DNA of 64,000 nt. Source: Bacillus sp. Marseille-P3661 (lineage in GTDB: Bacteria > Bacillota > Bacilli > Bacillales > Bacillaceae_J). Below are positions 36,230-63,968 of the stretch, one piece after another. Every line of letters begins with the position of its first letter. Positions within the stretch are counted from its first letter, which is position 1. Location of the stretch: contig NZ_LT965955.1 of NCBI RefSeq assembly GCF_900240995.1, positions 124,001 through 188,000 on the forward strand. Reading direction: 5' to 3'. A program made the translations under genes and the position numbers. The notes beneath the pieces are model-generated. The model worked only from the letters and a program-made list of their open reading frames with translations. It did no database searches and was not told the DNA's origin.

Positions 36230-36665
36230 ACAAAAAGCAAGTGTGAAACGCATGACCGCGCACAACACTTGCTTTAGATATAATCATCAATATTAAAAAG
36301 ACATAAGTTAACTATGACAGAGTCATATGTAATCGTCTATCATAAAAGTTCAACAATATTATGATAGGAAGCTCTTTAATATTCAAAATATATCATAATA
36401 GGGATCAGAGTCTATATAGCAAATAATTTACTTTTACTACTCTTATTGACCGTTTCACAAGTTGTTGTGCTAACGCACTGGTTGTAAAGTAACCAACTTA
36501 TAAAATTTGAGCTTTTAACTCAATCAATAAGGCAACTAAAGTTGCCAATCGGCATTTGACCCGGCTGTCCGTATGGCCTTAACTTCGAATAGAAGTGGTC
36601 AAAATTATCTGCTTGGAAAGATCTGATGTATATATTGAATATTCGCTTTCCAATTAACGCTACTC
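36230..36665 (-). promoter_or_regulatory. Candidate riboswitch/attenuator leader of the carboxy(nor)spermidine operon
   Basis: Read on the minus strand, a promoter-like TTGATA-16-TAAGCT near 36690-36663 starts a leader of about 550 nt. It contains several helices. TTGGAAAG pairs with CTTTCCAA, and TTTGACC pairs with GGTCAAA around an inner ACTTC/GAAGT hairpin. GGCAAC/GTTGCC has a TTTA loop. Downstream, the segment at 36458-36470 (GCACAACAACTTG) can pair with one arm of the terminator at 36260-36271 (CAAGTGTTGTGC) with a one-base bulge. That would be a switch between anti-terminator and terminator. No riboswitch class I know matches. A T-box was considered and rejected. Confidence 0.6.
36234..36275 (-). 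terminator. Leader terminator upstream of the carboxy(nor)spermidine operon
   Basis: On the minus strand, AAAGCAAGTGT and ACACTTGCTTT form a perfect 11-base stem followed by TTGTGTTTT. It lies about 130 nt before the dehydrogenase start codon, not after a gene, which suggests attenuation. Confidence 0.8.
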
Positions 36666-51167: not shown

Positions 51168-51309
51168 TAAATTTAAATAATATGATAGGTGAAAGTGGTG
51201 TCTTCCGGATACATTATTAAAAATATGAGCCGGTGAGATAGACACTTTTTTCTTTGATAAATATATCTATAATGTGGAATAATCGTGAACTTTAAGTGAA
51301 ATTTAAGGA

Positions 51310-52088
51310 AAAAAAGCCCGGTTGAATTGCTCAACCGGGCTTTCAATCGTTAACACCACAGGAGACCCAACCATGCCAAATCCTATTTGGGAATGTACCC
51401 TTTTTAGGTTACATTTGAACCATAATGGACTTAGATTTCACTTCTGTTTCAAAATCAAGTGTGCAGCCCAGCTAAGGGACTGCCAAAAGAAGTGAAGAAT
51501 TTAAGCTTAATCAGGATTGTGATAGCTCCGTGAACAGGAGACTCATGCTCCTGCAAGATAGGTTTTATTAAATTTTAGACTCAATCTTATACTTTTTCCT
51601 ATACTTGATAGTTACAGTTCCAAACTTTTCTGCAGAATATTTCATTGAATTACATCTAGTAGATAAGATCTAGATCGTGTGTGAATTAGGGTTTTTGGTC
51701 AAAATTAAAGTCAATGGGGGTTGAATTCTAGTTAACTAGTTACTCGACGGTAACTTAGTTTAAGCTAGTTATTGACTTCCTTACATAATGTAAGGATTGA
51801 CTATTAACTCTATCAACTATTACTGATTAAAATCTTATCGGTGATTTTTTTCAAATCACTTGGATCATACAGAAAGATTGTGTTCTGATTTTACCGTTAT
51901 ATAGGGCACTCACTGGGTAAATCAGAAAGAATTGTTGGTGGATTCACCTGCTTTCTAGATTTCCAAAGTGATAATACTTACTCCTAGTTTTATTTTATTA
52001 CCGTTTAAAATAACGGAACTAACTAGGATGGTTGAGTCTCCTGAGATGTTAACTTGTAAGATAATTTTTGTTTTCTGTTTATCTTACA
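51310..52088 (-). ncRNA. Candidate large structured non-coding RNA (about 780 nt)
   Basis: No coding frame exists here, yet the minus strand reads as one structured transcript. It begins just after an extended -10 promoter with a 5' hairpin of ten perfect pairs (52079-52088 with 52055-52064). A 26-nt closing helix joins 52028-52053 to 51349-51374 (23 Watson-Crick pairs, two G-U, one mismatch). Inside are many local hairpins: 51983-51989 with 52021-52027 around 52001-52016, CAGGAG/CTCCTG at 51535-51553, and TTCACTTC/GAAGTGAA at 51437-51496. The RNA ends at a strong terminator. Size and density of helices resemble ornate large bacterial RNAs (OLE, GOLLD, ROOL), but I cannot assign it to any class. 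A mobile element with inverted ends is the main alternative. Confidence 0.65.
51313..51344 (-). terminator. Terminator of the candidate large RNA
   Basis: On the minus strand AAGCCCGGTTGA and TCAACCGGGCTT form a long stem with a five-base loop, followed directly by TTTTTCC. The T-run exists only in this direction, so it does not serve the upstream GGDEF gene. Confidence 0.85.
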
Positions 52089-52093
52089 TTTTT

Positions 52094-52102
52094 AGTATAC
52101 CA
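52094..52102 (-). promoter_or_regulatory. Extended -10 promoter of the candidate large RNA
   Basis: The minus strand reads TGGTATACT, a TGN-extended -10 hexamer. Transcription would start near 52087, exactly at the 5' hairpin. No clear -35 was seen, which extended -10 promoters often do without. Confidence 0.6.
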
Positions 52103-52276
52103 CCAGTCGCTGGAAAATAATGTGCATATTATGTGAACATTGAAGACTTGAAGTTCTTTTTTAAGGAATTTTTGTTAGTGAAATAAAGTAATTTACAAAA
52201 ATTCATGTCCTCTTAACCGTGCGTTAACAATTGAAAGTTAAACTAAACCTATCATTACTTAAAGAAGGTGCAGCAC

Positions 52277-58976: not shown

Positions 58977-59003
58977 AAAGTCAATTAAATACTGGTACCT
59001 TTA

Positions 59004-59030
59004 ATTCAGTCCCGTGAGGCTGACAAGGAC
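59004..59030 (+). promoter_or_regulatory. PyrR-binding RNA element in the cytosine permease leader
   Basis: CAGTCCCGTGAGGCTGACAAGG closely fits the PyrR anti-antiterminator consensus (AGTCC-N-GAGAGGCT-AAGG). A GTATGATA/TATCATAC stem with an inner AAGTATA/TATACTT hairpin follows at 59039-59090, then the terminator. The order of the three elements is that of Bacillus pyr attenuators. Confidence 0.85.
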
Positions 59031-59095
59031 AGCGGAAAGTATGATAGCACTAGGTGAAGTATAGCTTTGTATACTTATTGTTTATCATACATTAA

Positions 59096-59138
59096 ACAGG
59101 CTACTTGTCGGAAAACGGCAAGTAGCCTGTTTTTTTTC
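59096..59138 (+). terminator. PyrR-controlled leader terminator
   Basis: ACAGGCTACTTG and CAAGTAGCCTGT form a strong stem with a short loop, followed by eight T residues. It lies about 70 nt before the permease start. PyrR bound with UMP should favour its formation. Confidence 0.9.
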
Positions 59139-63520: not shown

Positions 63521-63909
63521 AAATATGGTTGTTTTGTAGGAACCTAAGCTAGTACCATTTTATTATATACTGAATATTCCAAATTATGAAACGTGTTGCT
63601 TAGTAATTGCAAAATTTTATAAAAATATCTGAAACTATTTTTATTTACTAAACTAGAGCTCCAAGAAGAGGGGGCTGGAAAGGGAGTATAAGAGCTATTT
63701 GGAGATGGAGCCTTTATTCGTGTTTTTAAAGTATTTATTGATAACTATTCATTTAACGGCGTAGCAGATAACACAGAATACGAACAATACTTATTGACAA
63801 AAAAATAATATGCGCTTAGTATTAATAACGGAGTTTTTAAGTTTATACATGTTACAGTTGATTCGTATATTCTCGGTGATATGGTCTGAGAGTTTCTACT
63901 AGGAGCCGT
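63521..63909. other. About 390 bp with no recognisable gene
   Basis: Upstream sequence of the minus-strand dehydrogenase followed by non-coding DNA. A frame of about 38 codons ending at TAA 63806-63808 looks codon-like but has no start, and could be the remnant of a lost gene. Confidence 0.4.
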
Positions 63910-63968
63910 AAATTCCTAACTACGAATGGGGGCACAAGTCTACCCATTTTTAGTTAGGGATTTTTTTA
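63910..63968 (+). terminator. Terminator near the window end
   Basis: AAATTCCTAACTA and TAGTTAGGGATTT pair around an inner AATGGG/CCCATT helix, followed by seven T residues. There is no intact gene immediately before it, so it belongs to a short transcript or to a decayed gene. Confidence 0.75.

Follow-up and report, generated by a model that had tools for sequence, protein, structure and literature searches.

A conserved structured RNA family absent from Rfam 15, predicted to be separately transcribed, in relatives of Bacillus

What lies in the non-coding stretch of about 780 nt between a PAS-GGDEF gene and an EAL gene on the chromosome of Bacillus sp. Marseille-P3661? To our knowledge, only a handful of bacterial RNAs of such size and complexity have been found, and the three best studied, OLE, GOLLD and ROOL, have all been structurally surprising. 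An earlier note on the 64,000 nucleotides analysed here, which we call the window, proposed that this site encodes a large RNA, transcribed independently and belonging to a rare or undescribed class. The proposal is supported by Rfam, by homologues and by base changes in the closing helix, with transcription predicted from sequence, and we put at roughly 95% the probability that the locus belongs to a structured RNA family that is conserved, is transcribed separately and is missing from Rfam 15.

The locus is a predicted non-coding RNA gene on the minus strand with transcription of its own, which would start at about 52087 and end at about 51305. Its outer features are as follows.

51305..52087, minus strand: predicted transcript of ~780 nt, a non-coding structured RNA (promoter and terminator positions, folding z = -9.9, no conserved open reading frame)
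52094..52102, minus strand: extended -10 promoter TGGTATACT, hexamer at 52099-52094 (sequence; a -10 is recognisable in 90 of 97 homologues)
51305..51344, minus strand: intrinsic terminator, made of a GC-rich stem with 15 pairs (51344-51312) and the U-tract after it, on the promoter's strand

The promoter, the terminator and the reading frames all agree with the earlier description of a non-coding stretch bounded by an extended -10 element and a same-strand terminator. The 97 homologues were collected by having at least 20 of the 26 pairs of the end helix, P1; the internal helices P2 and P3, the promoter and the terminator played no part in their selection. In 90 of them, a terminator follows P1 at a distance of no more than 75 nt. 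The internal open frames of the window copy reach at most 57 amino acids and overlap the ends of the RNA, and across the 97 homologues open frames are no longer than in shuffled sequences, with no coding signal. A short peptide downstream of an AGGAGG sequence was considered and rejected, as its frame is not conserved.

The RNA of the window has a minimum free energy of -226.4 kcal/mol, compared with -152.3 ± 7.5 kcal/mol for dinucleotide shuffles, which is 74 kcal/mol better (z = -9.9). Because the opposite strand folds equally well (z = -9.7), folding energy cannot pick the strand, and the promoter, the terminator and conserved G-U pairs were used instead. In 36 diverse copies, P1 carries U-G at position 19 in 28 and G-U at position 17 in 18. 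Since these wobbles become A-C mismatches on the other strand, the minus strand is read as the sense strand. As a counterweight, position 15 is non-standard in 19 of the 36 cells (mostly A-C) in the minus-strand orientation.

The two ends of the RNA are joined by P1, which is preceded in the window subtype by a leader hairpin, P0.

52056..52087, minus strand: P0, 5' leader hairpin GUAAGAUAA/UUAUCUUAC, window subtype only (seen in the sequence)
52028..52053, minus strand: P1 5' strand GUUAACAUCUCAGGAGACUCAACCAU (covariation)
51349..51374, minus strand: P1 3' strand AUGGUUGGGUCUCCUGUGGUGUUAAC (covariation)

Positions 52053-52028 pair with 51374-51349 through 23 Watson-Crick pairs, two G-U pairs and one mismatch, exactly as first described, and among homologues the helix is kept by compensatory changes. 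P1 pairing was the selection criterion for the 97-copy set and is thus present in all of its members by construction. Evidence free of this bias comes from 65 copies identified through sequence motifs of the two ends, with pairing not required, from 18 window-type copies and from profile hits found by the 5' end alone. In the 65 copies, 84.8% of cells are paired in register, against 30-45% when the strands are slid. Among the 36 diverse copies, changes on both sides occur in 14 of the 26 pairs, with 98 double-changed cells compared with 26.7 after shuffling (0/500).

The interior-side half of P1 is almost invariant (CUCAACCAU/AUGGUUGRG). An irregular pair within the helix is usual: either A.C at position 15 with A-U at position 17 (26/65 copies), or A-U at 15 with G.U at 17 (26/65). 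Standard A-U pairs at both positions are seen in only two of the 65 copies, and the window copy is of this rare kind. Additionally, most copies have AGGAGR/YCUCCU-like strands within P1, and several have AAGAGG, AGGUGG or CAGAGA in place of the AGGAG-type strand; the resemblance to a Shine-Dalgarno/anti-Shine-Dalgarno duplex may be coincidental. P0-like hairpins (GUAAGG.../CCUUAC) are found in type A relatives and none in the Neobacillus type.

Inside P1, comparison of the homologues points to two further helices, a probable pseudoknot and a short repeated motif.

52021..52027, minus strand: P2 hairpin, 5' strand CCUAGUU (matched-pairing score)
51983..51989, minus strand: P2 hairpin, 3' strand AACUAGG (matched-pairing score)
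52013..52020, minus strand: pseudoknot strand AGUUCCGU in the P2 loop, with near-invariant GUUCCG (homologue comparison)
51524..51531, minus strand: distal pseudoknot partner ACGGAGCU (homologue comparison, fold of a Neobacillus copy)
51513..51519, minus strand: P3 5' strand CAAUCCU (pairing score against shuffled partners)
51377..51384, minus strand: P3 3' strand AGGAUUUG, with one bulged U (pairing score against shuffled partners)
51539..51545, minus strand: UGAGUCU motif, a perfect complement of the P1 5' strand, with a second copy at 51577-51583 (GAGUC conservation)

P2 is a hairpin that starts directly after P1, and its sequence varies with lineage: CCUAGUU/AACUAGG in the window type, UUCGUUC/GAACGAR in Neobacillus and GUUGGUU/AACCAAU in alkaliphiles. 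P3 closes the 3' domain as CAUCCU/AGGAUG, CAUCAGC/GCUGAUG or CAUCAC/GUGAUG, again depending on lineage. The pairing score of P2 is 16.2 against 13.8 ± 0.23 for shuffled partners (95 copies, +10 sd), and that of P3 is 18.7 against 14.5 ± 0.34 (74 copies, +12 sd); these standard deviations are not probabilities and are uncorrected for relatedness.

The P2-loop sequence GUUCCGU is complementary to ACGGARC just 5' of P3 in 74 of the 97 copies, where this CGGARC-like strand lies at a comparable distance from the 3' end. The unconstrained minimum-energy fold of a Neobacillus copy forms this pairing. Covariation in the flanks is weak (10.16 against 9.60 ± 0.17 shuffled, 3.4 sd, uncorrected for relatedness), and the test has little power because the pseudoknot core is near-invariant. 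We regard a pseudoknot joining the P2 loop to the strand beside P3 as probable on these grounds. In Neobacillus-type copies, the local and long-range pairings may alternate, since both use the GUUC bases. Most type A/B copies keep GAGUC, which is usually 30-100 nt 5' of the distal pseudoknot strand. UGAGUCU, conserved in many relatives, could displace the P1 3' strand.

The rest of the interior is less uniform. The earlier note counted more than ten local hairpins; they do appear in the single-sequence fold, but comparative support extends only to P1, P2, P3, the 5' leader hairpin in the window subtype and one hairpin of the 3' domain. RNAalifold on 18 window-type sequences recovered P1 and one 3'-domain hairpin and not the interior, so the interior hairpins are unproven. 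Much of this region is lineage-specific, and the drawn hairpins are therefore not all trustworthy. The distance from P1 strand to P1 strand runs from 295 to 954 nt, with a median of 563 nt (97 copies). Because the interior is so variable in length, a single precise large tertiary structure common to all members, as in ROOL or GOLLD, is unlikely.

None of the 4227 models of Rfam 15 matches the window copy when searched with Infernal at gathering thresholds, the models of OLE (RF01071), ROOL, GOLLD and raiA included; permissive thresholds gave weak chance matches around the terminator hairpin only. On 20 homologous loci no Rfam 15 family matches the RNA, the sole hit being a 5S rRNA, and the ROOL, GOLLD and raiA models find nothing there either. 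The host genome has a separate, complete OLE RNA (G000 C1:1102553-1103178, L206; 512 bits), which also served as a positive control for the search. As this OLE RNA is intact and lies elsewhere, the RNA of the locus is not OLE. An earlier description was not found in the literature by name or sequence, in a search whose coverage left out preprint servers and most subscription journals. The sequence and structure family is thus new relative to Rfam 15 and searchable papers.

The same Rfam scan recorded other RNAs in the window. A match to SpF59_sRNA (RF02440), a family named from Streptococcus, lies at 36549-36601 on the minus strand (72.8 bits, above the cut-off). A purine riboswitch (63843-63942, plus strand) and a PyrR-binding leader (58994-59134, plus strand) are both ordinary.

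Nucleotide searches for relatives, which the earlier note had suggested, found homologues across Bacilli. A DNA search of 397 genomes of the order gave 21 with a match; typically the two ends aligned and the middle varied. A few of the weakest matches, which align elsewhere in the RNA, are probably chance. A pattern drawn from the conserved 5' end matched 61 loci among GTDB contigs, spread over Neobacillus, Mesobacillus, Robertmurraya, Caldibacillus, Aquibacillus, Oceanobacillus, Heyndrickxia coagulans, Salipaludibacillus, Texcoconibacillus, Halalkalibacter, Litchfieldia and others. R1, a profile built on the 5' end, detected the RNA in 51 of the 397 genomes and 25 of the 135 genera of the order, as well as in one family elsewhere in the class (f64), and a broader profile (R2) added a second such family (f58). 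The weaker R1 hits, on inspection, have the P1 3' strand 270-920 nt downstream, nearly all with a -10-like box and a terminator. Two hits in f58 have P1-partner scores of 19 and 21, above the null maximum of 17. Another three hits, with E > 0.005, do not exceed it and were treated as chance. By these profile and pattern matches, more than 25 genera related to Bacillus carry the RNA. In 384 sampled genomes of the wider phylum there were zero hits outside the class; besides the window's own genome, this sample gave one weak unconfirmed match, within the order. RNA copies were not found in IMG/VR viral contigs (three patterns), phages or plasmids.

The flanking genes raise the possibility that the RNA is a cis-regulatory, riboswitch-like leader of a neighbour, for example of c-di-GMP genes. 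The identities of the PAS-GGDEF and EAL flanks were confirmed, and in three lineages the RNA has an EAL gene beside it: the window, G037 (a YkuI-like protein) and G433 (a GGDEF-EAL protein). This recurrence is perhaps more than chance, but it is not a defining context. The 81 neighbouring proteins surveyed have matches to 128 Pfam families, the commonest of which (EAL and GNAT) occur in only three each. The locus is syntenic within Neobacillus, but its neighbours change from genus to genus; the c-di-GMP genes beside it are therefore mostly chance. The earlier note had left open whether this placement was meaningful; it is not a feature of the class, and a c-di-GMP link was rejected since the survey showed no general association. 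A leader is also hard to reconcile with the strong terminator directly after P1 (90/97 copies), with the orientation in the window, where RNA and EAL gene form a divergent pair and RNA and GGDEF gene a convergent one, with the unrelated neighbours of other lineages, where no downstream gene is conserved between genera, and with the Rfam scan, which lists no c-di-GMP riboswitch in the window. We consider this explanation very improbable. The changing neighbours, together with a terminator before the downstream gene, point to a trans-acting RNA.

Differing flanks between genera, along with palindromic 26-bp ends and an ISL3 transposase gene adjoining one copy (L155), could also suggest a mobile DNA element such as a MITE, whose terminal inverted repeats would mimic a helix. 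However, 90 of 97 copies have their promoter and terminator beyond the inverted ends, the arms of P1 covary between species and the internal P2 and P3 helices are conserved. Copies within a genome are few (one to three, with two in some genomes) and diverged, not many and near-identical, and the Neobacillus locus is syntenic across species, with no shared transposase. These sequence comparisons leave the mobile-element reading disfavoured, and we give it hardly any credence.

Two genomes (L149 in G329 and L150 in G267) have three copies of the RNA clustered within ~2.5 kb; in the former, a PPK2 polyphosphate kinase gene separates the second copy from the third, which is followed by a Na/Ca exchanger gene. 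In a genome of another order (L143, G413), a copy has a baeRF release-factor-like gene on one side and a DEAD-box helicase gene on the other.

Upstream of the -10 element, the promoter region contains a further conserved feature.

52121..52137, minus strand: upstream promoter box TTCACA-N5-TGCACA (its position upstream of the -10 is conserved in homologues)

In the form TTCACA-N5-NNCACA, the box lies ~35-50 nt upstream of the start, and its combination with the -10 has one match in the whole host genome, namely the promoter of the RNA. Of the 97 promoters, 47 contain the direct repeat, 23 a cre consensus and seven a Rex-type palindrome, each compared with at most 0.3% of mononucleotide shuffles. 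The same box layout also precedes two other genes in a relative (G067), which we take to be hemA-like and adhE-like. PhoP was considered as the regulator because of the TTHACA repeats, but these same-layout sites precede the hemA-like and adhE-like genes and not phosphate genes. From these promoter motifs, we infer that the RNA gene is under carbon or redox control and that the regulator may differ between lineages.

How might such an RNA work? We lean, with some reserve, towards a structural or ribonucleoprotein scaffold acting in trans, and not a leader of a neighbouring gene. Comparison of the homologues gives its layout: the 26-bp P1 zips the ends together, P2 comes next, followed by a long lineage-variable domain, and a 3' domain closed by P3 sits beside P1. 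The probable pseudoknot between the P2 loop (GUUCCGU) and the strand next to P3 (ACGGARC) would form a compact core where P1 begins to open into the interior. In the scaffold model, the near-invariant half of this helix, which adjoins an AGGAG/CUCCU-like duplex, would be a docking site for a partner protein or a second RNA copy, and the amount of RNA would be set by an activator-type promoter answering the carbon or redox state. The scaffold role is modelled on OLE RNA, whose ribonucleoprotein is a precedent for a scaffold of such size (PMC12054373).

A large base-pairing regulatory RNA, whose conserved unpaired segments (for example GUUCCGU and UGAGUCU) would pair with mRNAs in trans, would share the stand-alone, apparently regulated promoter, the near-invariant short motifs and the one to three copies per genome that some sRNA paralogues show. 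However, the most conserved segment is the double-stranded P1 and not a loop, GUUCCGU has an internal partner, and the size and elaborate fold would be unusual for an antisense regulator, so that this alternative appears unlikely. That the RNA forms a homo-oligomer or cage from RNA alone, as ROOL and GOLLD do, is doubtful. The size is similar, the architecture is helix-closed and probably pseudoknotted, and three unrelated large RNAs are known to form homo-oligomers (PMC12286853); against this, the RNA is chromosomal and not found in phages or plasmids, and an interior that varies more than threefold in length is hard to fit into one symmetric assembly.

Returning to the scaffold, a bolder version is speculative, and we would not expect it to hold in full: the RNA would make up a large bacterial particle of a new class, separate from those of OLE, ROOL and GOLLD and coexisting with OLE in one cell. 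It would dock to ribosomal components through the Shine-Dalgarno/anti-Shine-Dalgarno-like duplex of P1 and be controlled by carbon or redox regulators, and UGAGUCU could invade P1 and so render the particle bistable.

Rfam 15 can thus lack a conserved RNA family of considerable size even where the host bacteria are well sequenced. The wide spread of this family, including the industrially used Heyndrickxia coagulans and culturable Neobacillus and Mesobacillus, offers a tractable system for the study of large-RNA function, and the presence of OLE and the new RNA in one genome makes a direct comparison possible.

Among known systems, the raiA motif RNA (ModT) is likewise a large conserved structured RNA of Bacillota, but the RNA described here has no Rfam match to it and no recurrent neighbour gene beside it. 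ROOL and GOLLD belong to the same size class and contain pseudoknots, which are probable here; they form cages and are found in phages and prophages close to tRNA islands (PMC12286853), in contrast to an RNA that is chromosomal, with no phage, plasmid or viral-contig copies found and no Rfam match. OLE RNA (RF01071) is the closest known in size and host range: ~600 nt, stand-alone and elaborate, in Bacillaceae that include alkaliphiles. It differs in that the locus has no sequence or structure match to it and has another core. Its colocalised gene, oapA, is absent beside the locus, where EAL and PAS-GGDEF genes lie, and the most frequent family in the neighbour survey reached only 3 of 81 proteins. 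P6 of OLE mimics a Shine-Dalgarno/anti-Shine-Dalgarno duplex and binds the ribosomal protein bS21 (PMC12054373); AGGAG/CUCCU in P1 faintly recalls this duplex, as a lead and not as evidence of membership. As a kind, that of the large stand-alone structured bacterial RNAs, the new family joins OLE, GOLLD and ROOL.
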